A DNA stretch of 64,000 bases from positions 46,573,001 through 46,637,000 of the forward strand of contig CP142451.1 of assembly GCA_038049695.1 (NCBI GenBank), written 5' to 3'. Below, in pieces: positions 6,180 through 49,395 of this stretch. Positions within the stretch are counted from its first letter, which is position 1, and each line of letters begins with the position of its first letter. The stretch comes from Cinnamomum chago (Eukaryota > Streptophyta > Magnoliopsida > Laurales > Lauraceae). The notes beneath the pieces are model-generated. The model made no database searches. It was not told the DNA's origin and saw nothing but the letters and a program-made list of their open reading frames with translations. The position numbers and the translations under genes were made by a program.

Positions 6180-6198
6180 TGGCATACCCGGTGGGACT
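6180..6198 (+). other. Primer binding site of the inner Tat/Ogre element
   Basis: TGGCATACCCGGTGGGACT starts four bases after the LTR end. It is identical to the outer copy's site at 520. It probably pairs with a tRNA-Arg 3' end, as known for Ogre relatives, but I have not checked the match. Confidence 0.75.
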
Positions 6199-6370
6199 CG
6201 TTCATTTGATGAACATGTGCTTAGATTCCTTTTGGCTCCTTTTTATTTGGTGGCCTATGTTGGATCTTGCATCTAAAAAACAAACACATGAGATGGGATT
6301 CTTGGAAATTTCTTCTTTTGAGTTTATTTCCAGTCTTTCTTGTTTCTAAAAAAAAAATTTTCTCAAAAAA

Positions 6371-7030: not shown

Positions 7031-7968
7031 AATCTTTCAAAACAAAAAGCCACTAAGGTTGCACCAATTGCGTTCTTTGACCAAAGTGGATCTAAGAAAA
7101 GCCTTGTCCAGAGTGTGGAGACAGCTAGACTGTTCTAGGCAAGGGTCCTCCAAACGGGTTCATTAAGTAATCCTATCCTTACCTGGGGGCTGATCTATCA
7201 ACTGAGGTTTCATAAGATCGAATTGGAGATCTATGTGAACTCTTAAAAAAAAAAAAAATCTTCAAAAAAAAAAAAAAAAAACTTCTGTCATTTTTGGATT
7301 CATATTTGAGAAATCCTGGTTCCTTCCTTTTCGGACTTCGAGATCGCAGAAATGTTGAACTCATATTCGGATTGGAATACCATTTGCTCTCTTCTATAAA
7401 GTCCAATCTTGACACTTTCAAAAAAAAAACTTCCGTCACTTTTGGATTCATATTTGAGAAATCCTGGTTCCTTCCTTTTCGGACTTTCGAGCTCGCAGAA
7501 ATGTTGAGCTCATTTTCGGATTGGAATACCATTTGCTCTCTCCTATGAATCCAATCTTGACCTTTCAAAAATCCCATCTCGTGTCCTTTCCAAGGATGCG
7601 ATTTGCAACATTTGTGCCTAGCGGTGCTAGTACGCCCTTTCGGGTCTACTGTATTCGCAACCGACACATTTGTATCTCAACCTTATATCATTTTACCTTG
7701 AGTGAGCTTTGCTTCTCGGTAATTTGAATTAAGGTTCACAATTGCTTCTAGCAGTCACTGGGACGCTCATTCTGAGCTGACCCTACCTGCGTTCAGAACA
7801 ATTGTGCCCTCTATGGCTTTTCTGCCTTCCTCATATTGCTTGGGCTGGGCCATGTCCCCTCGGGCGACTTGAAAAGGCGAAACCATAGTATTTTCCATTT
7901 ATGATCACCATATTCTTGTGATTACTAATGGATATGGTCTTGTTTCAGAAGTTTTCCAAAAACTAACA

Positions 7969-13900: not shown

Positions 13901-16900
13901 GCTTCATCCGTGAGGAACAACATCCTGAATGGTTGGCCAACATCGTCCCTGTGACAAAGAAAAATGGGCAAATCAGGGTCTGCATTGATTACAGAGACCT
14001 GAACAATGCATGCCCAAAAGATGAATTCCCGCTCCCTATACCGGAGGTGATGATCGACAATACCTGTGGGTTCGAGCGAATGACATTCATGGATGGCTTC
14101 TCTGGCTACAATCAGATAAAGATGCATCCTGAAGAAGGAAAACACACAGCATTTCGGACCCCGTTTGGCGTGTATTGCTACACTGTCATGCCATTCGGTC
14201 TGAAGAATGCCGGCGCTACATATCAGAGGGCTATGATGAAGATATTCCAAGATATGCAGCACAAGACGGTCGAATGTTATGTCGATGACCTCGCCGTCAA
14301 AAGCAAAAGAAAAGAAGACCATCTCAAAGATCTTCGAGAAGTCTTCCTCCGACTTCGCAAACACAAACTGCGAATGAATCCCCTCAAATGCTTTTTCGGT
14401 GTTTCATCGGGTAAGTTTCTCGGATTCATAGTACGGAAAGCTGGCATAGAGCTTGACCCCACCAAAGTCAAGGCTATCCTAGAAATGCCATCTCCAAGAA
14501 CCCTAAGACAATTAAAAGGGCTCCAAGGAAGATTGGCATACATTCGGCGGTTCATCTCCAACCTATCAGGAAAGTGCCGTCCATTCTCTCGGTTAATGAA
14601 GAAAGGTGTCGATTTTGTCTGGGATGCTGAATGTGAAGCCGCGTTCCAGGACATCAAGTCATACCTGACTAAACCTCCAGTGTTGGCTGCCCCCACAACT
14701 GGAAAACCATTCCTCTTGTACACAAGAGCCCTTGACTGTTCTTTAGGCGCTCTACTCGCACAAAAGAATGACCAGGGAAAAGAAGCTGCTCTATATTACC
14801 TTAGCCGCATGTTGGTAGGTGCAGAGCATCGCTACTCTCCAGTCGAAAAAGAATGCTTGGCAGTGATGTTCGCCGTACAAAAACTGCGTCACTATCTGCT
14901 ATCCAACACAGTGCACCTGATTTCGAGGATCAACCTCCTAAAGGTCCTTGTCACAAAAGCAGGTTCTCTCAATGCCCGACTGGCAAAATGGTCCATCCTC
15001 CTGTCACAATTTGACATTAGGTATGTACCACAAAAAGCAATCAAAGGCCAAGCTCTAGCAGACTTCCTCGAGGAGCATCCATTGCCTAAAGATTCTCCAC
15101 TCAGGGATGACCTCCCAGACGAATCAGTCTACAGTGTGGAGACTTCCTTATCAAATGCTTCCTGGCACATGTACTTCGATGGCGCAACCAGGACAAATGA
15201 AAAGGGAAATCAAATATCGGGAATTGGCATTCTCTTTGTTAATCCCGACAAATACATGATTCCACACGCATTCTCGCTACTGGAACCATGTTCAAACAAT
15301 GCAGCTGAGTACCAAGCCCTAATCATAGGATTGGAACTCGCCCTTGAATCCGGCATCACTACGCTGGAAGCTTTTGGAGACTCTCAACTGATCGTCAACC
15401 AGATGAATCAGAAATTTGAAGTCAGGAAGCCCGATCTGTTGCCTTACTACAACAAAGCACAATCGCTTCGACAAAAGTTCGACATCTGTCATATCACCCA
15501 CATCCTCAGAGGTGGAAACATTCGTGCAGATGCCCTGGCTGGACTTGCTGCGTCTATGGCAATCCAAGAAGGGGAAAACATGCAAATTACAGTGTGTCAA
15601 AAAAGGATTCTCCCTCCTCTCAACACACATCAAGCAGTTGCTGAATGCCACCAAGTGGTTGGAAGTCGGATTTCCGTCCTTAAACCTCTGATCGGCGACT
15701 GGAGGGATCCGTTCATTGATTACATAATGTTCGGAATCCTACCTGAAGATCCAAAAGAACGGGTAAGCATCCAAAGACGAGCCCCAAACTTTCATTTGGA
15801 TATTCCTGCAAAAATGCTGTATAGAAAATCCTACAATGGAGTACTTCTACGCTGCTTGTCACAACAAGAGGCTGAGGGAACACTCAAAGAAGTACATGCT
15901 GGTCTTTGTGGAGCCCATCAGGCTGGGCCTAAGCTCTACGATCAGATAAAAAGGTTAGGTTATTATTGGCCTACCATGGTGGCTGATGCAATGCAATTTG
16001 CTAAGCGCTGCCAACAATGCCAAGTTCATGGAGATTATGTCCACATGCCTCCGGAATGGCTACATCCTACAGCAATCTCATGGCCTTTTGAAGCCTGGGG
16101 TATGGACATCATAGGTCCAATCTCCCCTCCATCGAGCAAAGGTCATCGCTTCATCTTCGCCGCTACGGATTATTTCTCCAAGTGGTCAGAAGCATTCGCG
16201 CTTAGTGAAATGAAGACGTCATCAGTCCTTCACTTCTTGCGCACCAACATCATTTGTCGCTTCGGCATACCTAAAAGATTCGTCCATGATAACGGACCAC
16301 AGTTCCGCGATCACCGATTCTACAGGTTCTGCGACAAATACAAAATCCAAAGTTGTCCTTCAACTCCGTACAATCCGGCAGCGAATGGACTAGCAGAGGC
16401 CTTCAACAAGACGCTCTGCAAAATCCTCAAGAAAATGGTCTCTAGTCACAAAAGAGAATGGGGCGACAAACTGCCTGAAGCTTTGTGGGCCTATCGAACC
16501 ACCGTTCGAGGACCAACCCATAGCACACCATTCTCCTTGGTCTATGGATGCGAAGCTGTTGTCCCTTTGGAGGTTCAAATTCCTTCCTTAAGGGTATCTC
16601 TACAAAATGACATGACGCAAGAAAGCAATGTCAAATTGAGACTCCAAGAGCTGGATAACCTCGATGAGAGACGGCTCGAAGCTCTACAAAGCATTGAACT
16701 CTACCAAGCACGCATGGCAGGATCTTTTGACAAGAAGGTCAGGCAACGCGCCTACAAAAAGGGAGACTTGGTTCTTACAGTAAAAAGACCAATGGTTTTT
16801 GCCAACAAATTCAAAGGCAAATTTGAACCAAAATGGGAGGGACCTTTCGTCATCGACAAAGTCTTCTCCAACGGCGCATACGCTCTTCTAAACATGGAGG

Positions 16901-16956
16901 GTGACAGATGTATGCTGCCCATCAATGGGAAGTTCTTGAAGCGGTACTACCCTTGA
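7969..16956 (+). CDS. gag-pol: Inner Tat/Ogre gag-pol polyprotein (2995 codons, looks whole)
   Basis: One continuous frame encodes the whole Ty3/Gypsy replication machinery. The frame is open from 7918, but the first in-frame ATG is 7969 and is conserved in the outer copy, so I start there. Domains by residue are as follows. An N-terminal basic, Ser/Pro-rich extension spans 1-450. The gag core (LWMDSVPFPTKFKQPTLQTY) begins near 461. A Cys/His knuckle (CPYHQMVSHPLNQC) lies near 738. A long acidic, disordered linker spans about 880-1300. The aspartic protease has its catalytic Asp at 1389 (IDPGSA). A G-patch-like segment (MKKMGYDAQNPTGLGDGRG) lies near 1685. Reverse transcriptase has YVDD at 2104-2107. 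A Ty3-type RNase H follows, then a second archaeal-type RNase H with D2404, E2447, D2471 and D2521. Integrase has H2643, H2650, C2681 and C2684, and the catalytic D2713, D2774 and E2810 with D35E spacing. The dual RNase H is the Tat-lineage signature. Confidence 0.95.
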   Translation: MAASLTITFDENKYQLMLQDKQTKRTYKRPASCRSVISLGNSEDTGSNSTPRTIVFGSLGPFPLPAEETAPAKKQRTAPQRITTVIPRAIIKKPEARSAPAKPQPARNQVCSKTWSPRPSPKQRRSQTSAKPAYLAPLKENRFYPLAYMKEEKPTLRQTKPTQHEPACSYKPKIKSCIVRPPQEPVKAFTPTSRPFLSTGAELAKFKASLRQAKDRVQILSLPIFKEDKLGCCAPGTTSFIARAQPELTKAQIARRMRRRTAYRQKRLEKQRTQDSALQVSQKWVEKERPDQLVAVHMVGKTRKRQKSATKIHVRRPVTRSVSQTRRHKENSPAPSSQGHQSDHSSSSSSKRMSSSSVTKTVSSFDSRRMNVLVTNAEQPPPHDDVTARIQQLEQGQQRIETLIENLILNLQRPQNNEAPPSHQGDEENAENSESRALTKKDVDDILAKAKEEDTLKEHGIKPPYPLWMDSVPFPTKFKQPTLQTYTGKGSARQHVIHFKILTGAIADQDALKIRLFASTLKGTAFDWYSTLPEDSIQNWAMLETRFLTHFKGEDHPVSMAQLCSLKQGENESTYDFIHKWKAMAYKCSDVLPQASLVDICRNNMRARIRSMIIGNKSKNLGELLEASMEAETVIKDLNSQKSLKKEPTTIATSKPKKKEVLNVQTKSAPQQPKKDENKATGKKPELSDAFRERVEKKYPFDEDVEEIFGALLANGKLTLPDPKRPGDVGKTNDPRYCPYHQMVSHPLNQCFVVREKINEMWKNGVITFDKNYGSASVNMVSCGQKQKSPKEKITTSFKVIKMTQTSQELVPYPTSDGQPIWVHPDLLEDENWEVVKTKPTAQQRRQARRQLRKLKQQEKAPKKQEVAEKAETSSTASLGATEESSPKASKAVRKFTLGDFMPPHLKDETTQGASYSCNSVVGFSMDGYESSDTASDIDEWEESLETGEYLSDEEWIPESHLMPVIWYNPLQPQGSWSDDEEDQEAVQENTPVEPNHVEPQGADEEEDLAPVPDLDEYARILQYLAIEQEQGRINQLRHNPAPEVPENLQESPPVTPENEESCWIDDPLTSEDESDSQQFILEASSVKVTCNAITQDDNSSPSQASSPGTVTSELKPLPTDHLEEIPAGEIFFRENPVNWSQMPDLIGDVWTNKIFDKEGKLLDAVQDLLPENAPCNTITEDGNADTEKSSANEKEQPLDLEGDLLNKDPSPEALEVGRGTRSGRDYHKNYNQPSASYINPSGKQVVNAPSGKNNENAGPKEAFKYDLIQHFKHIPARLHILDLLRMSPQTRDSLISELQMLDADVDKHAPQVLQIEMDYRVEKSKTLSKGEKKKTEGSCIECLSVQKAASATIAFTKEDLLLGETKHNRPLYFTGYIKEVPVRKIQIDPGSALNLISTSALEELGIPPSKLSHTSVSIFGYDGSAQRPIGKIRFKLQIGDLISEVTVYAIKTPSCYNILLGRPWIHENGVVPSTLHQCIKFVGNDGLIHRVFADKKPFKGKEVYFADAQMYKDEKEEREEETASFAENLQKDKGKAPQQSPEENKPSIKTEENNQFPFMVSLKSSKPLVITTKAKKTKQRAGGKFAVSFVSILQDTDSDSEPEDDTSSSQADDQQVQPALTPMETTVDIEDPASASFVVPATSAEEKPIFFHKSGVSSSNSSLEPFKNEGMPQLSLYSPMAQAIMKKMGYDAQNPTGLGDGRGIITPLEPTLTKSQLEGWKPHRHIEKSSYGLGHDPDAPLRQLTQRLQNHLANQASTSHINEDIDLPGYLFEELVVKDPGSSSNWYDFFDDEEELSDDTDTRFSDPEEPLSPKEVPYFDLVSTGDWDHLIANLEKSTNQEDPWTKAEPWSVDTFGTPEGFVGLEASENIVEEPPSNLPTEDSVQKIDLGKPDNSRPVFISKNIKDDELPEYIAFLHEFIDCFAWSYVEMPGLDPKIAIHKLNLQKDIKPVKQGQRRFRPDVMDKIEQEVQKLKSVGFIREEQHPEWLANIVPVTKKNGQIRVCIDYRDLNNACPKDEFPLPIPEVMIDNTCGFERMTFMDGFSGYNQIKMHPEEGKHTAFRTPFGVYCYTVMPFGLKNAGATYQRAMMKIFQDMQHKTVECYVDDLAVKSKRKEDHLKDLREVFLRLRKHKLRMNPLKCFFGVSSGKFLGFIVRKAGIELDPTKVKAILEMPSPRTLRQLKGLQGRLAYIRRFISNLSGKCRPFSRLMKKGVDFVWDAECEAAFQDIKSYLTKPPVLAAPTTGKPFLLYTRALDCSLGALLAQKNDQGKEAALYYLSRMLVGAEHRYSPVEKECLAVMFAVQKLRHYLLSNTVHLISRINLLKVLVTKAGSLNARLAKWSILLSQFDIRYVPQKAIKGQALADFLEEHPLPKDSPLRDDLPDESVYSVETSLSNASWHMYFDGATRTNEKGNQISGIGILFVNPDKYMIPHAFSLLEPCSNNAAEYQALIIGLELALESGITTLEAFGDSQLIVNQMNQKFEVRKPDLLPYYNKAQSLRQKFDICHITHILRGGNIRADALAGLAASMAIQEGENMQITVCQKRILPPLNTHQAVAECHQVVGSRISVLKPLIGDWRDPFIDYIMFGILPEDPKERVSIQRRAPNFHLDIPAKMLYRKSYNGVLLRCLSQQEAEGTLKEVHAGLCGAHQAGPKLYDQIKRLGYYWPTMVADAMQFAKRCQQCQVHGDYVHMPPEWLHPTAISWPFEAWGMDIIGPISPPSSKGHRFIFAATDYFSKWSEAFALSEMKTSSVLHFLRTNIICRFGIPKRFVHDNGPQFRDHRFYRFCDKYKIQSCPSTPYNPAANGLAEAFNKTLCKILKKMVSSHKREWGDKLPEALWAYRTTVRGPTHSTPFSLVYGCEAVVPLEVQIPSLRVSLQNDMTQESNVKLRLQELDNLDERRLEALQSIELYQARMAGSFDKKVRQRAYKKGDLVLTVKRPMVFANKFKGKFEPKWEGPFVIDKVFSNGAYALLNMEGDRCMLPINGKFLKRYYP

Positions 16957-17339: not shown

Positions 17340-17850
17340 GGGAAGCGACGTTCAGTCGATACTTGCAAAACCCAAAATCGGAAGGATGCGAACCCCATTC
17401 GATACTTCCAAAATCCCAAAATTTCAAAAATCGTGGAGACGCAACGTTCCAGTTGATATCCACAACCCAAATTTTAAAACAAACAAAAAAAAACAAAACA
17501 AAGGTTCGAAAAAACCTCAAACTTCAAAAATCGTGGGGAAGCGACATTCCATCGATACCCACAAAACAAAATTTTTGAAGACAAAAGCAGGGAAGCGACG
17601 CTTAGTCGATACTTGCACCCAAATCCGCGAGGAGGCGACATTCCATCGATACTCGCAACCGAATGAGCAAGGAGGCGACATTCCATCGATACTTGCAATA
17701 CCATTCAGCAGGGAAGCGACGCTTAGTCGATACTTGCACCCAAATCCGCGAGGAGGCGACATTCCATCGATACTCGCAACCGAATGAGCAAGGAGGCGAC
17801 ATTCCATCGATACTTGCAATACCATTCAGCGGGGAGGCGACTTTTTAGTC
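17340..17850 (+). repeat. GCGAC-TCGATAC tandem repeats with a 121-bp higher-order unit
   Basis: The basic unit is about 55-60 bases and built on GAAGCGACGCTTAGTCGATA or GGCGACATTCCATCGATA followed by CTTGCA or CTCGCA. From 17588 a 121-base composite of such units occurs twice, starting at 17588 and 17709, nearly identical. Open frames here in both directions reflect the repeat period and not a gene. Confidence 0.85.
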
Positions 17851-17877
17851 GATACTTGCATTTTTGAAAACCAAAAA

Positions 17878-18480
17878 CCTGGCTTTCACGCCAAAAAACC
17901 CGGCTTCCATGCCAAAAATCCGGCTTTCATGCCAAAAAATCAAAAATCCGGCTTTCATGCCAAAAAATCAAAAATCCGGCTTTCATGCCAAAAATCAAAA
18001 TTCGGCTTCCATGCCAACAAAACAAAACTCGGTTTTCAAAAAAAAATCTGGCTTTCATGCCAAAAACAAAAAATCTGGCTTCCATGCCAAAAAGAAATTT
18101 CGGCTTTCATGCCAAAAACAAAATCTGGTTCTTACACCAAAAACAAAACTGGCTCTCATGCCACAAACCAAATCTTGGCTTTCATGCCATCTCAAAAATT
18201 TTGGCTCTCATGCCATAAACCCAAATTTGGCTTTCATGCCACCTCAAAATTCGGCTTTCATGCCATCAAAAAAAAAAAAAACCTGGCTTTTACGCCAACC
18301 AAAACAGAAACCCGGCTTTCATGCCAACAAAACAAACTGGTTTTCAAAACAAACCGGCTATAGATGCCATCCAAATCCGGCTATAGATGCCACTCGAAAT
18401 TTGGCTTTCATGCCGTGAACAAAATCTGGCTCCCATGCCAAAACATGTCTCAAAAACTGGCTCCCATGCCAAAACAATCA
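17878..18480 (+). repeat. GGCTTTCATGCC mini-repeat array, about 22 copies
   Basis: The core GGCTTTCATGCC (variants GGCTTCCATGCC, GGCTCTCATGCC, GGCTATAGATGCC) recurs every 20-35 bases, separated by A-rich spacers. The ends GGC and GCC are complementary, so each core could form a short stem. The LTRs carry a related run with inverted ends, CGCCTTTCA(T/C)GGC (5862-5935). On the minus strand this array lies just downstream of the antisense gene. Confidence 0.85.
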
Positions 18481-18718: not shown

Positions 18719-18825
18719 TCAGCCAAAAATGCCCTCCAGCCAAGCTTTCAGTTCCTCAAGCAGACTCTTGGCTTCATCCGTTAGAGTCTCCAAGGCACGC
18801 TTCTTCAAGAAACTGCCATGAGTAG
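18719..18825 (-). other. C-terminal coding piece of the antisense gene, beyond the solo LTR
   Basis: The minus strand carries an open stretch (HGSFLKKRALETLTDEAK..., ending with a stop at 18719-18721) that abuts the solo LTR's target duplication AGTAG. Its position, strand and Lys/Glu-rich character fit the end of the PMD gene's coiled-coil tail, so I infer it belonged to the same gene before the LTR arrived. It could also be untranslated sequence. Confidence 0.6.
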
Positions 18826-21310
18826 TGATGGTCCCGGCTTTTGTCTTTTTCCAAAGCTGCCTCCGCCCCGGGGCTGACGGGGTATGGTGGAGGGAAAAAG
18901 GAAAAGCGGGCATCAGTTTTTTTATACGGGTATGCCAATTTCTCTTTAATACTTGGAATTTAGAAATGGTGATCCGGAGATCCACCTTCACAAGTAAAAA
19001 GGGAAATGAAACTTTTTTCTAGTTTTCCATTGCATACATATTTTAATAAAAGAGACAGTTTTGTTTGAATGCCGTGAAAGGCGTTTTTGTGCCGTAGAAG
19101 GCGGTTTGGTGCCGTTGGAGGCGATTTTGCCATGAAAGGCGATTTACAAATCTTATCAATAATGAAAGACAAGAGATGTGATTTTTTTGTCTCTTTAGAA
19201 AAAATACAATTTACAACAGAAAAGTAAGAAAAATGAATCTAACTTCTCATGCGATTGTGGGAGGGCTCGTTCAGATCGATGGTCGCGAGTCATGTATGGG
19301 CTCCGCCATCGTCCTTCAGATGAGAACATAGTGCTTGATTTCTTGGCTTGGCTCCAACCTCAGATTTTTAGAGGATAAGGACCAAGATAAGGTCCTATAT
19401 CCGGTAAAAGGCTGAGTAGACGGGCTGAAAAGCCGCATCTAGCCATGTTGGATAGAAGGAGAGGTGGTCTTTGGGGGGGGTGGCCCCCCAAGGGGCTTCA
19501 ATCACCTTGTTGAACTTGTTGCAGCAGAGTTTTCTTGGAGGAGCAGGGTTGTAGAGATTTCTCCAAGGATTTTTGAATGATTTTCTGGCTCTTTCTGTGT
19601 GTGTCCCCCTCTTTTTTTGGAATGCTTGGAGAGGACTCCTATTTATAGGCCTTTTGGTAGCCTTTAGGAGTGATTTATGAGCCTTTATGGTAATAAAGCT
19701 CATTAAGGGAGGAGTTACGAGTTTAATTGCTTTTTGTTTTGTAACTCCTGACCCTTGGATTTCATTGGCCGGAGGAGAGTCATGGGCATTTAATCGCCTT
19801 TAATCTCCATTATGTTAGGAGTTTCATGGCTTGAATGCCATGATTGCTTGGACTTGTAACTCCTGAACGGAGGCTTCTGATTGGGCCGTTCAAGATAATG
19901 GGTTAATGACCGCATTAACTTGCCATAAACGGGCCAATTGATTGCACTAAGTGGCCACCTTGGTAGCTGAAGAGTCGCGGGCCATGTTGCGTCTCTTGGA
20001 ATTCCCTTTGCGATGATCATCGATGGATCCTTATGTAAATCAACATCAGATGATCATGTAGTTTCAGACATTGGTTGATACCAGCGGGCCGGCAGCATCT
20101 GTCCAGTCGATTTCGCGATCGGGCGGGCAGAAAGTGCACTTTTTGGTTGTTCAGCTGGCGATCAACGAAGTTTTTGAAGTTCTTGGAAGGATTCCTGTGA
20201 TCTTGGCGAATATCGGTGAATTTGGAGCCTCAAAAGTCTGAATCTGGAAAAATCACAGGGACAGAACAACTCGTCTCGCGAAAACGGACGAAACGGGGGG
20301 TCTCGGGGCGAAATCGGCGCCCCGGACCTCCCAGGGTCGCCGGCCCCATGGTCTCCGGCGACCATGGGCCATGGTCGCCGGCGACCATGGCCCAGGGTCG
20401 CAGGCCTGGCCCAGGGTCGCGGGGCTCTGCGACCCTGGGGGGAAAATTGCTTCCCGGGGCCCGTTTCTGGCCGTTTTTCGTCGTTTTTCGCTTCCGTTTT
20501 TTTTGTTTGTTTTCTATGACATTTCTCCACATTTTTGGCTTGATTTACCTCTGAAAAACATGATGAGAATCCTTGCAAATTGTTTTGCAAAGTTTCCGAT
20601 TTTCCGGGAAAAGCCGAGCGCAGAACTGCTGATTTTCCGCCAGAAGCTGAAACAGGGTCAAACGATGTCGGAATGACCTGAAATTTGAGGTGAAGCTTCT
20701 TGAGCATTAAATAAGACCAACCATGGGCTTTCTTTTGATTTTTGAAGCCGTTTGGGGTCATGCAAATGCTTGCCTTTGATTTCACTGCGAGGGAAATGCC
20801 GAACTTTGACTTTCGGTCAAACGATGTCCGATTGACCTGAAATTCGACGTGTGACTCCCTCATCAGTAGTTAAGACCAACCATAGGCTTTCGTTTGAGTT
20901 TTGAAGCCGTTTGGAGTCATGCAAATGCTTGCCTTTGATTTCACCGCAAGGGAAATGCCGAGCTTTGACTTTCGGTCAAACGATGTCCGATTGACCTGAA
21001 ATTCGACGAGGAGCCTATTTGAGTCATTTTGAGATGATCCGCAAGCTCCGAATTAGGTGCCATGGTCCCGGGGTGGTCCGCCGCCGGGAGCTGCTGCTTA
21101 GCTGTTGGAGAAGTGAAGTTAGGCCAAATGATGTCGGAATGGCCCGAAACTTCTTGTGTACCTCTCTTTTGGTTGTTTTGAATGACCTTGCAGTTTTTGT
21201 TTGATTCTGACAAGATCTGATGCTTGAAGTGGCACCTGCCTATTTTTGGTAGGATGCGGCTCATGTAGCTTTTGGTGTGAAGAGGCAAAGTGACATTTTT
21301 GGTGTCAACA
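18826..21310 (-). mobile_element. Solo LTR of the Tat/Ogre family, nested in the inner element
   Basis: The solo LTR is 2485 bp, TG...CA when read on the minus strand, flanked by AGTAG at 18821-18825 and 21311-21315. It is nearly identical to 3732-6176 and 27132-29615. No internal sequence remains, so this is a solo LTR left by recombination between the two LTRs of a full insertion. It carries the palindrome cluster (20365-20394 is the perfect 30-bp palindrome) and a TATA box at 19640-19647. It interrupts the 3' end of the antisense PMD gene. Confidence 0.95.
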
Positions 21311-21315
21311 AGTAG

Positions 21316-24300
21316 CTGGAGAAGGCTCTATCCCTTCTGCTACACCAGGAAGACTATCCCGTGCAGTCTGCCATCGTTCATTCTCTCTAGCCTTCCTATT
21401 GAGAATCCGATCGGCCTCTGCAACTTGGCGAATCAAAGCACTCTCCCTGTCACGAGCCTCTGTTATGGCGGACCACGTACTGGCGACTTGGGCCTTTCGG
21501 AGTTCGAGATGCTTCCTTGCCTCCTCAACCTCTCCATCAAGGATGCTAAGGTCATGTTGCAGCCTGATGATGTCTAACTCCGCTCGGTTCCTCTCCCGAA
21601 CCAGCTGCTTCCTGCCCTGTGTAGTCTCTTTCAAATCCGATTGAGCCTTCGCAGCAGGGTTCAGGAACATTTCTTGGAAGAACTGGTCATCAGGATAGCT
21701 GATGGTCTCAAACCATCCCTCGCCTAATGCAATGATCTTATCAACGATCGCCCGGGCGTCCGTAACATCCAGACCAATATCTTCCTCAGCATCTTTGAGA
21801 ATCTCTTTCACATGCGAAATCTTGCTACGTGCAACATCCAAGTGTCCAGAAAGGAGGGTCTCAATCCAAGAACTCAAAACCCGCATCACCACCTTCTTCG
21901 CATACTGAAGAGATGGGCCAGATGAAGAATCACCCTTCTCTGTCGATTGGCTGCCCAAGTCATGTCCCATCGAAAGAGTAACAATAGAACACTTTCCAAT
22001 CGGGGCCGCTGGAGAAGGAATCTCAACATGAGGTCTTGCCTCTACCGCGTCAGAATTGGCTGGAGAAGTCCCAATTACTGGGTCAACTTCTGGCATCCCT
22101 GGCTCTGGCTCTGAAGGAAGCGATGGACTCTCTTCTGTCACTTCAAAATCTGCCAAACACAAAAAGGTATGAATATGATCTTGTCAAAAAAAAAAAAAAT
22201 CAATGTCAAGATTATCACTATGAAATACCTTCTTCCATGATGGACGGAGTACTTTCTATCTCCATTTGCTCATCCGAAGCATCGTCGAAAGCCATATCCA
22301 TAGATGGCTCGAAGTCGGAACCCTCTGGCAAGTCAGCTGACAAGAAAACAAAAATATGTGTCAGCAAATTCAAAAAAAAAAAAAAAAAAAAAATCATCAT
22401 CATCCTCATACCAGGTGGAGATTCTGGGTCCTCCCCAGAGTCCCTCAACTTTTCTTCAGATGCCGCAACTGGATCCATCACCGCCTCATCGGCAGGAACC
22501 TCGGGCATCACCAAGTTTTCATCTTCTGCAAAAGAAAGAAAACAACAGATCAAAAAAAAATCCCTCATAAAAGGAAAGAAGCGAAAATAGAGAAGAAGGA
22601 AAATCATACCAACATCAGCGGACTCTTCTTCACGACTCCTCTTCTCTGGAGGCTCATCAGCATCTCCTGATACCTCCTCAGCAATGGTAGGAGGGACTTC
22701 TAGATCAAGAGAGTCTTCGTGGCGTCTCTCAGTGCGACGCTGTCCTCTCCTCCTCTTTTTTCTACGAGCCGGTCTACTTGAAGTACCTGCCTCACTGTCA
22801 AAGTCAGGACTTCCACTTGGCTCCTCACTGGACGACCCGCTCCTACCAGTGGACCCCATGGAAGCCTTCATTCGCTCTGCTTGCATCCAAGTGTCGATCT
22901 CGGCTTCCTCCTCCTCGAGCTGTCTCAAGACCTCAGCAGGTATCTCTTGAGCGGCTCCGGATCTAATGAAATCTTGTTCCTCGAGAAAGCCTATCCTATG
23001 CTTCTCTCCAGAAAGGAAGAACAAAACTTCCCCTCGACGGATGCCATCTGATCTACCAAGACCCTTCCCAGGAGATTGCTTGACATTCAGCTCCTTCTTG
23101 GAAAGCCCTCGGTACACAGCAAAGCTCTCCACGAACCACTTCGTGAAGCCAGCAGTCCGGAAAATGGGCAACTCAGGATAGGAAATCATGGCAGTAGTGT
23201 CCTCCGCACTATAGAAAGCCCATGCATTTCTCCCGTCCTGCAAACCTCCAAAACGCTTCACCATGCTCGAAGGCGCTCCAACAACGCCTTGAGAGAAGCC
23301 TAACTGCAACGCAAAACGCGAAGGGACATACGGCTGGATATCAACAAAAAGATGTCTGCGGTACACCATCGTGCCAACACGTATGTTTAAAAGCCACCTC
23401 TTCTCTGCGTTGGTCAAAGAATAGTGTCTTCCCGATCCCGCCCTGGTAGAATCTCGGGAGACACCAAAATCAAAAGCCTTCTTCCGCAAATCTGGAGAAA
23501 GCTTTACTGAAGATTGCCCAATCTCGACATCCCTGAATCGTCGGATTCTCAAGCGGGCAGACAAAAGTGAATCAGAAACGGCTTTTCCCCTAGCCAACCG
23601 AATCATAAAAGGGTCATCATCATGAGCAGCGCCCAAACGGTGGAGGCCGGGACAGTGGTACACATACCACGAATAAAAAATATGGGCTGAAAATACCCTA
23701 TTCATAGGAAGCCCAAGCCGAACCAGAAAAGCAGCAGCCTGCAGTTCGGTGCACAAATAGGAGTAAAGAGCAGGCACCAAAGCCAACTGCTCTCCGAACG
23801 CCGTCTGACAAGCCGGAAATATACAATGCGGCCTGATGTGTGTTCCGTCTCCTCCAGCAAAAACAGCCTCACCCAGCCAATAAGTGAGGTACGCAGCAAC
23901 GTCTCTCCGCAGCGCAATGTCGGAGCAAACGGCGTCTGTACTTGTGAGAAAGTTCTTCAAATTCTCTCGCATGGCAGAAATCTTCTTCCCCGGATTCTTA
24001 GTCTTGGCTTCCTGGGTCATACTCTCAGAAGATTCTTCGTCGCCAAAAAAGTTTGGAGACAAAGAGCTGAAACTCCTCCAACTGCTACACCGGACTTTCA
24101 AGCCCTCCTTCTCCCTCAAAAAATCGTAGAAGGCGACGAGCTGAAAGTACAAAAGCCTGAACTCCTCAGACTGCTCCTCAAGGACGCTGTCAATCGGCAT
24201 AAATTCCTCATAGAGTTTGCCGAGGATGGGTAACCCGGTAATGGCACTCAGCTCCTTCAAAGAAAGACCAATCTCACCATTCGTAACAATGAAGGTGTTG

Positions 24301-26091
24301 GTTTGTGGAAGGAAGGACTCCAGCATGGCCATAAAAGCCTCATCGGAGAAAAATACGGTTTGCCTAAAAGCGCGAACCGCATCAAAAATCTCGGCCTCCT
24401 TCAGAATGGCACCGCCGATCTGCAGGATGTGATCAGTCCACGACTCCCAGCCCGAGTCAACACTGAAACGGCCACGAAGTCGAAAAGGCTTCACCCAATT
24501 GCTGCCATCGCCCCTGAAAATGCCAAGGCCCACCTGTCTCAAATCAACCAATGGATGATCAGATCCTTGGTAGCCGCTGGCCGGCATCAACATGTCCAGA
24601 CGGACAGGCGACTTCTCTGCATAACCAGAAGGACCGCCAACAAAAACCCCGGTCTTGACCACAGTGGTCCTCTTTACCCAGCTTGGAGGATCTTCTCTCT
24701 TAGAGCAAGTGGGAGAAAGACTCATGATCGAAATAGTACGATCAAAAGGCGACCGGGTAGAAATGGTTCTCTCCTCACCATCGGCTGTGTAAGAGAACTG
24801 AAAGCATCTCCTTTGATATGACGAGTCATCAGGAGCTGCATCACCAAAGAAAAAGGTAGGCTTGGGCACAACGCTCTGATCGTCCATGACCCAAGGACGA
24901 TTGCTTGCCATAATCTTGTAAAACTCCTCATCCTTGAGACCGATCAGTCGCTGTCTCATCTCATCTCGGTTGAGCGAGTCACACTCTTCCAAGTTTCTCT
25001 CCACATACTGGACCTTCTCCCAAGCCTGCTGTACAGCAGCATTGGAAGATCTGGCAGATCGACGAGGTGTATCAGTAACGGGCTTCTTACCCTTGTTCGT
25101 TCTGGAGGAACTACCTGCAAAGATTGAAAAAAAAAAAATCAATCAACAGAATGACAGAATTTTGCTAAAAAAAAATCCTAGCGAAATTTTGGCATGACTC
25201 CGAGGCAATTCCGAAGAAAAGGGAATCACCCCGAAAAGAAAGGAAGCCTGAAGATGAGCTCATGATCAATGAAGGATTCTCAAAGAAGACTCGAACTCAA
25301 ACATTGCTGCGAGATCAAGACAGTCTTCTCAAATTTCCGCAAGAATCGGAAAAGAGCTCAACATTGCTGCGAGCTTCAAATCCCAAAACTTGCAAAAAAG
25401 CTCCTCGAAACCCCCGCAAGACTAAAGAAAGAGCTCAACATTGCTGCGAGCTTCAAATCTCAAGACTTGCAAAAGATTTCCAGGTGTGCATCATCATCAT
25501 GCTCCCAATTCAATTTACCAAAAATCATGCATAAAAGAAAATCATCATGCACTAGATGCTAGGAAAACCTTGACAAAATTTGACCAATTCCAACCCAACT
25601 TGGTCAAAATCAAACTTTGTCTAAGTCAAAATTCATGTTGACTTAACATAGAAACTCTAGCCTTCTATCTTGATGCATCAAACAAAAAAAAAAAAAAAAA
25701 AATGCATAAACATCTTGAAATGCATGAAACCTCATTATCATGATGATACAAAAAGGGGAGAAAGGAAAGTTTTTTTTTTTAAAAAAAAAAAAGAAAAAAA
25801 GTTATGGGCTGGCCCACAGGCCGTGGCCCATGGGCCACATGGCCGTACGGCCCAAAGCTGTACGGACATGTCCGTACAGCAGCAAAAAAAAAAGGAGAAA
25901 AGAAAAAAAAAAGAAGAAGAAAAAAAAAAGAAAAAAGAAAAAAAAGAACACGTGCAAAAAAAAAAAAAGAAAAAAAAGAACACGTGCAAAAAAAAAAAAA
26001 AAAAAAAAGAAGAGAGAGAAGAAAAAAATGATGAAACTTTCTTTACATGGAACTTCTTGTAAAAAGAAATAAAAAACTTACTTGAAGCCAT
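21316..26091 (-). CDS. Antisense PMD-like gene with a coiled-coil tail, carried by the Tat/Ogre element
   Basis: This is a spliced minus-strand gene downstream of pol. I propose start ATG 26089-26091 (MAS, then a GTAAGT donor at 26081) and acceptor TTTGCAG ending at 25115. Three short introns follow: 22526-22609, 22337-22411 and 22150-22228. All are GT-AG with T-rich 3' ends, and all keep frame. Exon 2 (22610-25114) encodes the plant mobile domain, including NTFIVTNGEIGLSLKELSAI and TGLPILGKLYEEFM, followed by a basic RRKKRRRGQRR stretch that may be a nuclear signal. Exons 3-4 are acidic. Exon 5 ends in a heptad-rich coiled coil (KQLVRERNRAELDIIRLQHD and on). PMD proteins in plants act in silencing of transposons, and Tat elements are known to carry antisense PMD-like frames. 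Its role here is unknown. The solo LTR splits its 3' end. Confidence 0.82.
25290..25460 (+). repeat. Three copies of an AACATTGCTGCGAG repeat in intron 1
   Basis: (A)GCTCAACATTGCTGCGAGCT with downstream TTCAAATC(C/T)CAA(A/G)ACTTGC occurs at about 25359 and 25434, with a partial copy at about 25301. The period is about 75 bases. This lies in the long first intron of the antisense gene. No coding meaning is apparent. Confidence 0.7.
25823..25880. repeat. Three adjacent perfect palindromes in intron 1 of the antisense gene
   Basis: GTGGCCCATGGGCCAC (25823-25838, 16 bp), GGCCGTACGGCC (25841-25852, 12 bp) and a 24-bp perfect palindrome (25857-25880, core GTACGGACATGTCCGTAC) follow one another within 58 bases. 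The flanks are A-rich runs. The GC content contrasts sharply with the rest of the intron. Confidence 0.9.
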
Positions 26092-26212: not shown

Positions 26213-26220
26213 TTTTATAG
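26213..26220 (-). promoter_or_regulatory. Probable TATA box of the antisense PMD gene
   Basis: On the minus strand TATAAAAG lies about 120 bases upstream of the proposed ATG at 26091. That spacing leaves a leader of roughly 90 bases. The position suggests the antisense gene has its own promoter and is not driven from an LTR. Confidence 0.55.
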
Positions 26221-27131: not shown

Positions 27132-29615
27132 TGTTGACACCAAAAATGTCACTTTGCCTCTTCACACCAAAAGCTACACGGAGCTGCATCCTACCAAAAT
27201 AGGCAGGCGCCACTTCAAGCATCAGATCTTGTCAGAATCAAACAAAAACTGCAAAGTCACTCAAAAGAACCAAAAGAGAGGTACACATGAAGTTTCGGGT
27301 CATTTCGATATCATTTGGCCTAGCTTCACTTCTCCAACAGCTAAGCAGCAGCTCCCGGCAGCTGAGCACCCCGGGACCATGGCACCCAATTCGGAGCTTG
27401 TGGATCATCTCAAAATAACTCCAAAAGGCTCCCCATCAAATTTCAGGTCAATCGGACATCGTTTGACCGAAAGTCAAAGCTCGGCATCTCTCTCGCAGGA
27501 GAAAAAAAGGCAAGCATTTGCATGACTCCAAACGGCTTCAAAACTCAAACGAAAGCCTATGGTTGGTCCTAACTACTGATGAGGGAGTCACACGTCGAAT
27601 TTCAGGTCAATCGGACATCGTTTGACCAAAAGTCAAAGCTCGGCATTTCCCTCGTAGTGAAATCAAAGGCAAGCATTTGCATGACCCCAAAAGGCTTCAA
27701 AACTCAAAAGAAAGCCCATGGTTGGTCTTATTTAATGCTCAAGAAGCTTCACCTCAAATTTCAGGTCATTCCGACATCGTTTGACCCTGTTTCAGCTTCT
27801 GGCGGAAAATCAGCAGTTCTGCGCTCGGCTTTTCCCGGAAAATCGGAAACTTTGCAAACCAATTTGCAAGGATTCTCATCATGTTTTTCAGAGGGAAATC
27901 AAGCCAAAAATGTGGAGAAATGTCATAGAAAACAAACAAGAAAAACGGAAGCGAAAAACGGCCAGAAACGGGCCCCGGGAAGCAATTTTCCCCCCAGGGT
28001 CGCAGAGCCCCGCGACCCTGGGCCAGGCCTGCGACCCTGGGCCATGGTCGCCGGCGACCATGGCCCATGGTCGCCGGAGACCATGGGGCCGGCGACCCTG
28101 GGAGGTCCGGGGCGCCGATTTCGCCCCGGGACCCCCCGTTTCGTCCGTTTTCGCGAGACGAGTTGTTCTATCCCTGTGATTTTTCCAGATTCAGACTTTT
28201 GAGGCTCCAAATTCGCCGATATTCGCCAAGATCACAGGAATCCTTCCAAGAACTTCAAAAACTTCGTTGATCGCCAGCTGAACAACCAAAAAGTGCACTT
28301 TTTGCCCGCCCGATCGCGAAATCGACTGGACAGATGCTGCCGGCCCGCTGGTATCAACCAATGTCTGAAACTACATGATCATCTGATGTTGATTTACATA
28401 AGGATCCATCGATGATCATCGCAAAGGGAATTCCAAGAGACACAACATGGCCCATGGCCCGCGACTCTTCAGCTACCAAGGTGGCCACTTAGTGCAATCA
28501 ATTGGCCCGTTTATGGCAAGTTAATGCGGTCATTAACCCATTATCTTGAACGACCCAATCAGAAGCCTCCGTTCAGGAGTTACAAGTCCAAGCAATCATG
28601 GCATTCAAGCCATGAAACTCCTAACATAATGGAGATTAAAGGCGATTAAATGCCCATGACTCTCCTCCGGCCAATGAAATCCAAGGGTCAGGAGTTACAA
28701 AACAAAAAGCAATTAAACTCGTAACTCCTCCCTTAATGAGCATTATTACCATAAAGGCTCATAAATCACTCCTAAAGGCTACCTAAAGGCCTATAAATAG
28801 GAGTCCCCTCCAAGCATTTCAAAAAAAAAAGGGGGACACACACAGAAAGAGCCAGAAAATCATTCAAAAATCCTTGGAGAAATCTCTACAACCCTGCTCC
28901 TTCAAGAAAACTCTACTGCAACAAGTTCAACAAGGTGATTGAAGCCCCTTGGGGGGCCACCCCCCCTCAAAGACCACCTATCCTTCTATCCAACATGGCT
29001 AGATGCGGCTTTTCAGCCCGTCTACTCAGCCTTTTACCGGATATAGGACCTTATCTTGGTCCTTATCCTCTAAAAATCTGAGGTTGGAGCCAAGCCAAGA
29101 AATCAAGCACTATGTTCTCATCTGAAGGACGATGGCGGAGCCCATACATGACTCGCGACCATCGATCTGAACGAGCCCTCCCACAATCGCATGAGAAGTT
29201 AGATTCCTTTTTCTTACTTTTCTGTTGTAAATTGTATTTTTTCTAAAGAGACAAAAAAATCACATCTCTTGTCTTTCATTATTGATAAGATTTGTAAATC
29301 GCCTTTCATGGAAAAATCGCCTCCAACGGCACCAAACCGCCTTCTACGGCACAAAAACGCCTTTCACGGCATTCAAACAAAACTGTCTCTTTTATTAAAA
29401 TATGTATGCAATGGAAAACTAGAAAAAAGTTTCATTTCCCTTTTTACTTGTGAAGGTGGATCTCCGGATCACCATTTCTAAATTCCAAGTATTAAAGAGA
29501 AATTGGCATACCCGTACAAAAAAACTGATGCCCGCTTTTCCTTTTTCCCTCCACCATACCCCGTCAGCCCCGGGGCGGAGGCAGCTTTGGAAAAAGACAA
29601 AAGCCTGGACCATCA
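27132..29615 (+). repeat. Inner Tat/Ogre 3' LTR
   Basis: The LTR is 2484 bp, TG...CA, almost identical to the 5' LTR apart from a larger palindrome cluster (about 27990-28110) and scattered single-base differences. TATA is at 28792-28799. It is followed by the target duplication ATATT at 29616-29620. Open frames within it are not genes. Confidence 0.93.
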
Positions 29616-30383
29616 ATATTAATTGGGCTTTGTTTTTAACTTGATTGAAGTTATCACACACACACATCATGAGCATACATCTTTGCATTAAACTTCAATC
29701 AAATCTTTTATGTGCCTTAAACTTTGAAATGCTTTAAGCATATATTAATTGGGCTTTGTTTTTAACTTGATTGAAGTTATCACACACACACACACACACA
29801 CACACACTTCATGAGCATACATCTTTGCATTCATATAGTATTTGTGTGAGTTGTTTTTCACTTTCATATTAGCCTAATTAAGAGGCAATTCCATTGAGCT
29901 AAAATTGTATCTCTTAGAGTGTTCTTTTGTGAAGACACCTTCTTAGAGAAATCTTCATTTGTAAAGGTTATTGCTTAGCCTAAGAAAAGCATTGTGTAAA
30001 GGTTATTGCTTTGCCTAAGAAAAGCATTGTGTAAAGGTTATTGCTTAGCCTAGAAAAGCATCTTGTAAAGGTTGTTGTTGAGCCTAGAAAAACAACATTG
30101 TAAAGGTTATTGCTTAGCCTAGTAAAAAGCATAATTAGTGGAAATCCGGTGGGGTGATTGGTTCACAAGCCGGTAGTGGACGTAGGCATTGAGGCCGAAC
30201 CACTATAAATCCTTGTGTGGTGGTGAATGCATTGTGGTGATTGTTTTATTAGCTTCCGCATTTAGATTGTTTATCATCACTTGTGACTAGTTTAGTTTAA
30301 GAAGTTAAAATTTGCCTATATTAGTCACTTATTGTAGCTCACCCTATTCACCCCCCCTCTAGGGTTAGATCCCAGGACTTTCA
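29616..30383 (+). repeat. Type-A Copia 5' LTR, right part
   Basis: This continues the LTR begun at 2594 and matches 48654-49390. It includes CA microsatellites (about 29656-29666 and 29779-29807), a 128-base tandem duplication shared with the 3' LTR, and a run of about five 33-base units built on GTAAAGGTTATTGCTTAGCC (about 29965-30125). It ends GGACTTTCA at 30383. Confidence 0.9.
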
Positions 30384-30385
30384 AT

Positions 30386-30397
30386 TGGTATCAGAGC
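30386..30397 (+). other. Primer binding site of the type-A Copia element
   Basis: TGGTATCAGAGC begins two bases after the LTR end. This is the classic complement of initiator tRNA-Met used by most plant Copia elements. Confidence 0.9.
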
Positions 30398-30483
30398 CTC
30401 GTGCTCTATCTTATAAGATCAAGTGTTTGGAACTCTTGATTAGTTGTAAAAACCTAGAGTCAAAACCCTAGTGTTGTGCTTTC

Positions 30484-31918
30484 ATGAAAATCATTAGAAT
30501 GGATTCCATTATGATAGATAGTTTAGATTCTTTTGTAGATTCTTCTAGACCCCTCCTTCTTCCTTCTATTGGTTCAAACTCTCAAATTAATGAATCTCAA
30601 TTTGATTTAAAAGAAGAAGAAAATGATTATAATGAAGATGACCTTCAACAAGCCTTTGAAGAATTATATGAATTATCCTTAAAGCTTGAGAAGAAAAACA
30701 ATAAGTTAAGAGAAGAATCTAAAAGACTAAACAAAGAACTAGTCTCTTCAAAAGATGAACTTAGAGAGAAAGAAGAAGTAATACAATGTCTAGACTCTAA
30801 GTTCATGATCTCTTTAAATAACCTATCTACTATCAAAGATGAACTAAATGAATTAAAGATATGAAATGATGATCTTAAAAAGGAAAATTTAAACCTAAGA
30901 GATCAATTAAAAAGGCAAGACAAAGACTTTATCAATTTAGAATCCAAGTTGACAATTTCCATGGAAAACATGTCTAATGTTCAAAGTAAGTTAAAAACCT
31001 TAGAACTTGGATCTAATGTTGTTAATGAACTTAATTTCAAATTAAAACTTGCCAATGAAGAGCTAATCAAATATAAGGAAATTGAAAATGATCTTTTAAA
31101 AGTAAAAAATGAAAATTCAATCCTTATAACCAAAGTCACTCAACTTGAAGGATATAAACAAAAGTATGAGTGCAAGTTTACCCAAAGTGAAGAGAGACTT
31201 GAAAAATTATTTAAATTGGGTAAATCTCATGGAGATAGGACGGGTCTTGGTTTTGATAAGTATACTTCATATGACCCTAAATTCACCAACACTTTTGTGA
31301 AAGGTGAGTCCTCTTTCTCCTTTGCCCAAAACTAAATGTATTTATTGTGGCATTGAAGGGCATTTTAGGTTTGAGTGCAAATTAAGAAGAAGCCATGTGT
31401 CTAAACCCATCTTTGAACCCAAAAAGGTAGAATCTAAATCTATGAAGGGTAAGACACTAAACACCAAAGAAGACTCCAAAAAGATTAAACAAGTTAAATC
31501 AATTAAAATGGAGTCTCTTAAAATAGATTCTAAAAAGTTTAAACAAGTTAAACCAAGTTTAAAAGAATCTATAAACAAAAAGCTTCTTAACCTATCTCCC
31601 TTATATCAACCCATGAAAGAACTTTTGAATAAAGTAACAAAGTTAAATTTAAAATTCAAAAGTCAAATAAAGGGAGAATATAAGAAGAAAAGAAAAATGA
31701 ACAAATCCCCAAAGAAACAAACTCACCAACGTCAAAAGACTAATCACCAATCTAAGATAAATTTAGTCAAATCTAAATATCATGGCGATAAGTTCAAATT
31801 TAAAATTTATCAAGTCAAATCTCCTATAGTTGGTGAGACTCCTAAACTAGACCTCAAAGTTCAACCCTCTCAAGACCTTAGGTGGATTCCTAAAGTTAGA
31901 TACTTAGACAAACCTTAA
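30484..31918 (+). pseudogene. gag: Type-A Copia gag-like gene (fossil)
   Basis: This is homologous along its length to the whole type-B gene at 39789-41204. It starts MKIIRMDSIM about 85 bases after the primer site and encodes Lys/Glu-rich coiled coils, then a CCHC zinc knuckle (CIYCGIEGHFRFEC) and a very basic C-terminal part. The usual Copia gag capsid core is not recognisable. The frame is broken, with about two interruptions. The SIRE/Maximus-like flavour comes from the LFKLGK(S/P)HGDRTGLGF motif before the knuckle. Confidence 0.82.
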
Positions 31919-32481
31919 GGCCTTGAACCTCTTTGACCAACCTATTCTTTTTAAGTTAAATCATATTGTTGGTCATGTTGCATTTGCATTTTGTTCTTTA
32001 GTTACATTTCTTAAAATGCATTGTTTCTTTATGATCAATTGATTTTGTCTTCATGCACCATTCTATTTACATATCATGGTTTTCAAAATCTTTTGATTAT
32101 AATTTCATCATGTTAGATTTGCTTTTTGCTCACATTGAGTTATATGACTTGCATTGCATTTCTTTACATGATCAATTGATTGTGATTTCAAAAGCTTTCT
32201 AGCTAGAATAGTCATGATCGATTGTTGTTTTAAGTCATTTGCATGTTTGATTATTTAGTTATATTCTTTTTATATGCTAATGTCATTTGGTTCCATGTAT
32301 GGTTGTGATATTAGTTATATTTGTAGAAACCATACTAGAACTCAAATCCATCCTCTATGCCTTCTAGTCATTTCTTTTTGGATGGTCATGATGTTGATTC
32401 ATGTATATTTTCTAAGTGATGTCATCCTTATACATGTTTCAACATCATAGTAGTGTTCTTGATCATATGAAACTCTTTGAA
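31919..32481 (+). other. Type-A Copia interior without a recognisable gene
   Basis: AT-rich sequence (GCATTTGCATTTTG and CATGATCAATTGATT words) shared with the type-B interior at about 38900-39788 on the other strand. I see no protease, integrase or reverse transcriptase motifs. It ends at the ATCCA target site of the type-B insertion. Confidence 0.75.
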
Positions 32482-32486
32482 ATCCA

Positions 32487-33214
32487 TGAAAGTCCTTGGA
32501 TCCTAAATGGTCTCAAAAGTTCATGGTTCAAGCCCCAAAGAAGGTTGGAAATGAATGGACTTTATAGCCAAAAAGTGCCCAACGGCTAGTCCTCGGTCGA
32601 CCTGCAAAGAGGCCTCGGTCGACCATGAACACACAACGGTAAAAAAAATGACCGTTTGAAAAACTGCTTTTAGCGGCGGACACAGAGACCGCCGGTAAAA
32701 GTGGTTTTGTCCTCCGGTAAAAGTCCTGTTTTCCCAAAAATGCAACTTTTCAAAGTATTTCTTGGGGGAACTTTTGGCCACTAAATCAAGCTTGAATAAC
32801 ATGTTTTAGATCAATCTAAGATGATTAAAAACATGAAACACAAAGAGCCTAAAATGATTCGAAACTTTAAATCCAAAGGCTAGCTTGATTTCTAAAAACT
32901 CTTTTCACATAAAAAAGCATACAAAGATGATTCTGAAAGAGATGAATGCATGCAAGGCACAAACCTAAATTCTCAATATGATTTCACAAAAGTAATGCAC
33001 AAAGAATTAGGTTTTCAAAAGAGTTTGAATTCTAAAATCAATGCATCCAAGTTTAGAAACAAAACATGCATAAAACAATACTTTTACAAATCTTAAAAGC
33101 AATGCATGTATAAAACCAGATTTCAAGGTTTTCTAAAACAATGCATGAGTGTAAATTCAAATGATGTGAATATGTTAATGCATCCATCAAATTGCAAATA
33201 CAAAATCCCTAACA
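32487..33214 (-). repeat. Type-B Copia 3' LTR
   Basis: 728 bp, bounded TGAAAGTCC...CCCTAACA on the + strand. It carries GGTCGACC words at about 32596-32640 and a TATA-like TTTATAGCC at about 32567. It aligns with both ends of 41306-42625. Confidence 0.85.
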
Positions 33215-33226
33215 ATCTCCCCCTTT
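33215..33226 (-). other. Polypurine tract of the type-B Copia element
   Basis: On the minus strand AAAGGGGGAGAT immediately precedes TGTTAGGG of the LTR. The same tract occurs on the + strand at about 44092-44103 before the LTR-B fragment. Confidence 0.8.
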
Positions 33227-33484
33227 GCAATTTGATGGCAACTTACTTATCATTGAATTAACACAACAAGTCTCCAGCTCCCCCTAAGCTGGACAAGTCT
33301 TGAAATCTTCTTGGATGCTCCTCCTCTTAGCTTGGGCTCTTGGGCTCTCTTCTTCAATCTTCTTGATGCTTGGTGCTTGATCAATCTTCAAGCTTTCTAT
33401 TCATCTTCCTTTCTTTGGCCAAGCACCTTCTTTAGCTCCAAGTTTTCTTTCTTCTATAAGCTCTTCCCCTTTGACCATGCCTCT

Positions 33485-41204: not shown

Positions 41205-41291
41205 GCAAGGACAACTCTAGGGTTTTTGACTCTAGGTTTTTACACCTAATCAAGAGTTCCAAACACTTGATCCTAAAAGATAGAGCACTTG

Positions 41292-41303
41292 GCTCTGATA
41301 CCA
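41292..41303 (-). other. Primer binding site of the type-B Copia element
   Basis: The minus strand reads TGGTATCAGAGC two bases after the LTR end at 41306, the tRNA-Met complement. It is the same site as in the type-A element. Confidence 0.9.
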
Positions 41304-41305
41304 AT

Positions 41306-49390: not shown

Positions 49391-49395
49391 GAATC

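Follow-up and report, generated by a model that had tools for sequence, protein, structure and literature searches.

A five-exon antisense plant mobile domain gene in a Tat-clade retrotransposon family of Cinnamomum chago

Extra open reading frames (ORFs) bearing a plant mobile domain (PMD) were reportedly described in Ogre elements by Steinbauerova et al. in 2011. In later papers, the PMD is given as the most frequent atypical domain of plant Gypsy elements (PMC9289625), PMD-A1 and PMD-A2 are encoded only by Gypsy elements, and the host proteins MAIL1 and MAIN act in silencing (Ikeda et al. 2017, PMC5418596). Here we describe a 64,000-nt stretch of Cinnamomum chago DNA (the window), in which a Tat-clade Ty3/gypsy element carries a PMD gene antisense to its gag-pol, together with the sister copies of this gene elsewhere in the genome. 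We conclude with moderate confidence that this Tat family, which has dozens of scored copies, carries a five-exon antisense PMD gene that was selected in replicating elements and whose product would be a nuclear, trans-acting accessory factor.

Several described systems resemble this one. A review of antisense ORFs reports that the maize Grande gene23 protein is nuclear and that a promoter lies upstream of its gene (PMC7264820), while the TRP28 ORFs of Retand are treated in PMC11963269; both are antisense genes (aORF-3R) between pol and the 3' long terminal repeat (LTR), as is the present gene, and tandem arrays occupy this same region in about half of the Retand elements (PMC7264820, PMC11963269). 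The present gene differs from both in its protein domain, a PMD with no Transposase_28 match, and in its multi-intron structure. As an extra gene with PF10536 in a plant Ty3/gypsy element, it is like the Gypsy PMD-A genes and the Ogre extra ORFs (PMC5418596; Neumann et al. 2019, PMC6317226); what is worked out here in comparison is the five-exon structure, a TATA box, the native C-terminus, and a test for selection. The element protein also shares its Pfam domain with host MAIN and MAIL1, which have been tied to the phosphatase PP7L (PMC7156037). Its conserved core is ~20% identical to the three highest-scoring PMD genes of the genome, but it is much larger than those genes, with basic, acidic, and coiled-coil parts, and any contact with PP7L is conjectural. 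Accessory genes in antisense, Gypsy/Ogre elements with PMD genes, and the idea of counter-silencing are already known, whereas a multi-exon structure of an element-borne PMD gene was not found in the part of the literature that we surveyed, and we claim no priority for it. The gene in the window is better resolved than usual for its kind, albeit in a broken copy.

Structure of the PMD gene and its sister copies

The PMD gene is located on the minus strand of the window, where its ATG at 26091 opens a 10-nt exon 1 (26082-26091, ATGGCTTCAA) 128 bases downstream of a TATA box (TATAAA, 26214-26219). Exon 2 (22610-25114) encodes the N-terminal region, the plant mobile domain, a strongly basic stretch, and the beginning of an acidic region, which continues through exons 3 (22412-22525) and 4 (22229-22336), while exon 5 (21311-22149) encodes a coiled-coil-like tail and is cut by a nested LTR (LTR B, discussed below). 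All four introns are GT-AG, with lengths of 967 nt (25115-26081), 84 nt (22526-22609), 75 nt (22337-22411), and 79 nt (22150-22228), and the five exons join in frame to give a spliced frame that is open for 1193 codons to its first stop. A sequence-only reading of this locus had proposed a tiny first exon with the ATG, a first intron of about 970 bases full of palindromes and repeats, three short GT-AG introns, exons in frame at every junction, and the domain order PMD, basic, acidic, coiled coil. Each of these features was borne out, with intron 1 being T-rich in addition. The PMD assignment itself was confirmed by a Pfam search of the spliced protein, which matched PF10536 within exon 2 at 56.5 bits against a gathering cut-off of 34.9 (E 3.4e-15), with its best stretch at residues 372-664. 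The other families listed by Pfam for this protein (CCDC106, HAUS5, and DUF724) all fell under their cut-offs, a search of solved structures with exon 2 returned a single match at E 0.48 that offered nothing useful, PHROGs gave no match, and Rfam gave none over window positions 3000-30000. Structure prediction of the PMD region from an alignment of five sequences reached a mean predicted local distance difference test score of just 33.9.

A DNA search of the 1.06-Gb genome (14 contigs) considered 2989 first-look candidates and gave 32 matches, 31 of them scored. Thirty copies with DNA, including the window and all of them best-scoring ones, make up the aligned set, while one partial copy (C7) was without DNA. 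The matches were mostly of 97% identity and their exons differ by ~1% from those of the window. As all 30 copies can be aligned through it, the architecture is not a product of chance. Coding exon lengths of 10/2505/114/108/834 (counted to window position 21316) were found in 29 of the 30, the exception being L032, in which one base of exon 4 is missing. Exon 1 was likewise kept in 29 copies and lost in L034. The splice dinucleotides of introns 2-4 were present in all 30 copies and those of intron 1, together with exon 1, in 29. Intron lengths were 701-1010 nt for intron 1 (L034 left out), 64-80 for intron 3, and 72-88 for intron 4, while intron 2 was 84 nt in every one of the 30 copies picked by DNA score. 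TATAAA was found upstream of the ATG in 27 copies, at 128 bases in 25 of these, and its 17-base context was exact in 26/30. The spliced frame to 21316 was free of stops in 16/30 copies, including the window. Also in intron 1 (25115-26081), a perfect 22-base palindrome, CTGTACGGACATGTCCGTACAG, was exact in 20/30 copies and a further sequence, GGCCCATGGGCC, in 27/30; both are possible candidate regulatory sites.

A protein search gave a similar picture. All 54 scored exon-2 matches (from 4588 candidates) have a length of exactly 2502 bases, and no stop occurs in 40 of them, compared with 47/54 for an equally long piece of pol (54 scored of 28070 candidates). When 41 PMD places (38 of the 54 from the protein search plus 3 from the DNA search) were set against the 54 pol places, 15 pairs were ≤10 kb apart and in all 15, window included, PMD and pol lie on opposite strands. 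Their spacing is 5.9-6.2 kb, except in the window, where LTR B lengthens it to 8.66 kb. Judged from these copies, the family regularly carries an antisense PMD gene of the spliced type, located between pol and the 3' LTR, and the uncut family protein would have about 1225 residues comprising PMD, basic stretch, acidic region, and coiled coil. One additional sister copy, L047, ends abruptly within PMD exon 3, beyond which its DNA looks unrelated.

The frame itself argues for splicing. Retention of all three short introns keeps the frame in 0/30 copies, and when retained singly, intron 4 keeps it in none, intron 3 in 7/30, and intron 2 in all 30. The 84-nt intron 2, which lacks a stop and is of constant length in the aligned set, was accordingly considered as an optional coding segment (an exitron). 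This candidate was rejected after six further copies were fetched whose listed open frame ended near intron 2: in 6/6, its T-run is one T shorter or longer, such that the retained intron loses the frame, while in 5/6 the alignment is gap-free across exons 3 and 4 and the part of exon 5 covered (L047 being the copy that breaks off). The antisense orientation would also explain how a retroelement can keep introns. In the plus-strand genomic RNA, the introns of an antisense gene appear as CT...AC and should escape splicing during retrotransposition; by the same deduction, PMD protein could arise only from a separate, spliced minus-strand transcript.

Possible role of the PMD protein and probable selection upon it

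We propose that the protein is made from its own TATA-box promoter via a spliced minus-strand transcript and that it may act in trans, as a nuclear accessory factor for the element. From the literature on PMD and antisense accessory proteins, its likeliest target would be chromatin or transcription, where it might imitate or compete with host MAIN/MAIL-type PMD proteins. On the statistical evidence given below, amino-acid changes were selected against during replication, and individual copies drift neutrally after insertion. One could also imagine that the protein serves the replication cycle instead of acting upon host silencing, for example in nuclear entry of the preintegration complex, integration targeting, or RNA handling. 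This seems a possible, if rather unlikely, alternative: Grande GENE23 and other antisense accessory proteins are nuclear and have been likened to retroviral accessory factors (PMC7264820), and the strongly basic stretch of the spliced protein would suit such a function, but MAIN and MAIL1, its relatives in the host, have their roles in gene expression and in transposable element (TE) silencing (PMC7156037, PMC5418596).

A more ambitious version of our proposal is that Tat elements keep a complete gene of host type, promoter and introns included, on the antisense strand because there it can pass through retrotransposition without being spliced and be expressed without recourse to the LTR, and that its PMD protein counters host silencing of the PMD/PP7L type in trans and thereby helped the family to spread. 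We regard this full scenario as doubtful. VANC21 of VANDAL21 is presumably unrelated to the PMD protein and belongs to a different class of element, and counter-silencing by a PMD protein is a conjecture. Nevertheless, VANC21 is a TE-carried protein that opposes silencing, just as has been suggested for TE-encoded PMDs in general (PMC8616336), and there is published speculation that PMDs captured by Mutator-like elements do the same (PMC5418596). Antagonism of silencing and service to the replication cycle seem about equally plausible to us.

Evidence that the protein matters to the element comes from substitution patterns. The ratio of nonsynonymous to synonymous substitution rates (dN/dS), a comparison the sequence-only reading had pointed to, was 0.56 when pooled over pairs (bootstrap 0.41-0.76; 29 copies, L034 dropped). 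By region it was 0.41 for the N-terminus, 0.52 for the PMD, 0.57 for the linker, and 0.76 for the coil, all with wide intervals, that of the coil including 1. In a sharper test, we separated shared from private variants in 28 copies, with the window as reference and both L034 and positions differing in >14 copies left out. The noncoding sequence (1174 bases with 100 private variants) served to build a neutral spectrum, under which the exons should hold 251 nonsynonymous, 104 synonymous, and 16 stop changes; the private exon variants observed were 188, 77, and 16, respectively. Private variants thus have a nonsynonymous/synonymous ratio of 2.44 versus a neutral expectation of 2.41, and their 16 stops, against 16.1 predicted or ~12 if scaled to the 281 variants seen, are not depleted. 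Shared exon variants comprised 22 nonsynonymous, 19 synonymous, and 0 stop changes, a depletion in amino-acid changes with a binomial p of 0.014 (private versus shared, Fisher p 0.017). The direction was the same in an earlier count made against a different codon reference (80 synonymous and 196 nonsynonymous changes among private variants, 25 and 33 among shared ones; 17/17 stop variants private). The simplest reading is that the elements replicated with a working protein and then decayed freely, and thus the PMD protein was probably under purifying selection in replicating elements, less tightly than pol.

The sequence-only reading had likewise argued for selection, but from the conservation of the splice sites. 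Its conclusion gains support from the shared variants, whereas its argument had to be downgraded as proof, because the conservation of 16 splice-site bases is weak evidence at an exon divergence of only ~1%. The frame argument and the shared-variant test are the stronger evidence. That reading also suggested that the gene may help the element, perhaps by acting upon host silencing, which is the conjecture already in print for PMDs carried by TEs (PMC5418596, PMC8616336).

Several observations weigh against this interpretation. In the seven copies with both genes readable, dN/dS was 0.29 (0.17-0.55) for pol and 0.77 (0.50-1.34) for PMD, so that PMD is looser than pol and its interval includes 1, although the choice of pol copies by their protein similarity would tend to give a low value. 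The selection test relies upon just 41 shared variants, and the total of 281 private exon variants is a quarter lower than the 372 predicted, which indicates that the neutral model is rough. Exon lengths are constant across the 30 copies while introns 1, 3, and 4 drift, but most of the intron indels fall in T-runs prone to slippage, and copies free of gaps were possibly favoured in the sampling; we have therefore downgraded this contrast. More generally, a comparison limited to the best-scoring copies may inflate both intactness and the scarcity of exon indels. As for a role in silencing, the PMD-linked promoter motif CATGCAGTTT, published for MORC1, which is placed downstream of MAIN/MAIL1 (PMC9899485), was not significantly enriched in the window (11 matches at ≤1 mismatch versus 6.9 expected, with 7/100 shuffles as high).

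Some of these points would suit a passenger, that is, an old captured PMD gene copied without benefit that looks conserved because the copies are young. The small exon divergence, a constraint weaker than that on pol and indistinguishable from neutrality in the seven matched copies, and the 14/30 copies with a stop or frameshift (L034 solely through its lost exon 1) are all consistent with it. We nonetheless consider a passenger unlikely, since the shared variants are depleted in amino-acid changes and free of stops while private ones are at the neutral ratio, and since the coding exon lengths and the native stop are nearly constant. It is less probable still that the antisense transcript rather than the protein matters, pairing with the genomic RNA and limiting the element through small RNAs. 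Such a role has been proposed for antisense ORFs generally (PMC7264820) and the transcribed region lies wholly within the element, but an RNA role alone would not preserve exon frame, splice frame, and amino acids.

The nested LTR, the carrier element, and their surroundings

The gene in the window had been described as complete and intact-looking. This does not hold for the window copy, because LTR B, an inverted solo LTR of the same family (18826-21310, minus strand), interrupts the last exon. LTR B is a full-length LTR copy that starts inside exon 5, with a target-site duplication (TSD) of CTACT on both sides, and its Kimura two-parameter (K2P) distance to the two LTRs of the carrier (LTR A and LTR C) is 0.022-0.024. 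Its first bases supply the final Cys codon and the frame-closing TGA (21307-21305), such that the stop is LTR sequence. The native end of exon 5, 33 codons plus stop, is orphaned at 18719-18820 (minus strand; read from 18820 to 18719) and still open. LTR B is absent from 29/29 sister copies, whose exon 5 continues directly into the sequence that lies beyond LTR B here, with a stop at codon 312 of exon 5 in 28/29, versus 280 in the window, and a nearly identical C-terminus; only L026 departs from this, with its stop already at codon 80. A nested solo LTR private to the window copy has thus cost its PMD gene the final 33 codons and the native 3' end. That the window copy is instead a working gene ending in an LTR by design, with the inverted LTR as built-in stop and terminator, is hardly credible and was rejected, since although the frame is open to the TGA and the LTR lies in the sense direction of the transcript, LTR B has its own 5-bp TSD, is missing from all 29 sister copies, and has the native end and family stop just beyond it. 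As a family feature an LTR-supplied ending is refuted by these copies; a truncated product could still be made from the window copy. LTR B has the orientation of the PMD gene, opposite to gag-pol, and hence antisense pol RNA could arise from this copy if LTR B contains a promoter.

The carrier is an LTR element at 3732-29615 flanked on both ends by the TSD ATATT. Its length is 25,884 bp, of which 2,490 are the nested insertion (LTR B plus one TSD copy). From self-comparison and analysis of ends and TSD, its 5' LTR (LTR A) lies at 3732-6176 and its 3' LTR (LTR C) at 27132-29615, both on the plus strand. The two differ by a K2P of 0.0070 (17 substitutions in 2435 sites), which indicates a recent insertion. 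A paralogous empty site is located within 48620-48700, where the flanks of the carrier (3701-3731 and 29616-29650) are uninterrupted around one ATATT (near 48655-48659); the left flank matches at 100%, and again ~130 bases on, and the right flank at 97% over 60 bases. The plus-strand gag-pol is a single frame of 3027 codons (7873-16956) with the order gag, protease, reverse transcriptase, RNase H, second RNase H, integrase. All are over their Pfam cut-offs except protease, which is just below (22.9 bits versus 24.3). RT_RNaseH lies at residues 2277-2380, RVT_3 at 2436-2557, and the integrase zinc and core domains at 2666-2835. Tandem repeat arrays occupy 17586-18400, between pol and the PMD gene, and the interval between the 5' LTR and gag-pol (6365-7571) holds ~168-bp repeats (4.1 copies, 6365-7029) and two further 148-bp copies (7272-7571).

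The sequence-only reading had named the carrier a giant Tat/Ogre element. The Tat clade is defined by a second RNase H (aRH), which in angiosperm Ogre and Retand types lies between RNase H and integrase (PMC6317226). The second RNase H of the carrier has this position, and the carrier is, on its domains, a Tat-clade Ty3/gypsy element of the angiosperm type. An extra gene with a PMD is reported for 57% of Ogre elements (PMC6317226), and PF10536 over its cut-off in the carrier points in this direction. However, Ogre elements are described with two ORFs separated by ~274 bp on average, a region that is an intron in the pea and Medicago Ogre (PMC6317226), and such split frames were not seen in the carrier, where 7873-16956 is one open frame; we therefore file the element as Tat clade only. 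Ogre elements are described with a primer binding site for tRNA-Arg (PMC9289625). Retand is marked by an antisense Transposase_28 domain (PMC11963269), which was not matched in the PMD protein, the sole antisense frame scanned with Pfam.

Elsewhere in the window, a second, diverged Tat copy at 47499-58145 has pol and gag that are 80-86% identical in DNA, with its frame in pieces, while a second PMD gene was not found in the window by tblastn (E up to 1e-3). Remnants of another Tat 5' region and gag at 13-2580 are 73-83% like 5675-8950. Two inverted segments, 32698-33484 and 43834-44620, are 99.5% identical over 787 bases, which suggests a recent inverted duplication or paired insertions; further inverted matches lie nearby (30368-32241 versus 39473-41321). 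Outside the window, three clustered PMD genes with single long open frames (L001, L002, and L003; G000:C10, 59.77-59.80 Mb) are the three best PF10536 matches among those listed for the genome and are probably host genes.

Significance of the family

Whether the antisense genes of giant plant retrotransposons act at all is described as an open question in PMC7264820 and PMC11963269. In the present family, the junctions of the gene model are exact, young copies number in the dozens, and the population test is a simple one, which together make expression and function directly testable. It would likewise provide material for asking whether TE-borne PMD proteins oppose the PMD silencing pathway of their host.

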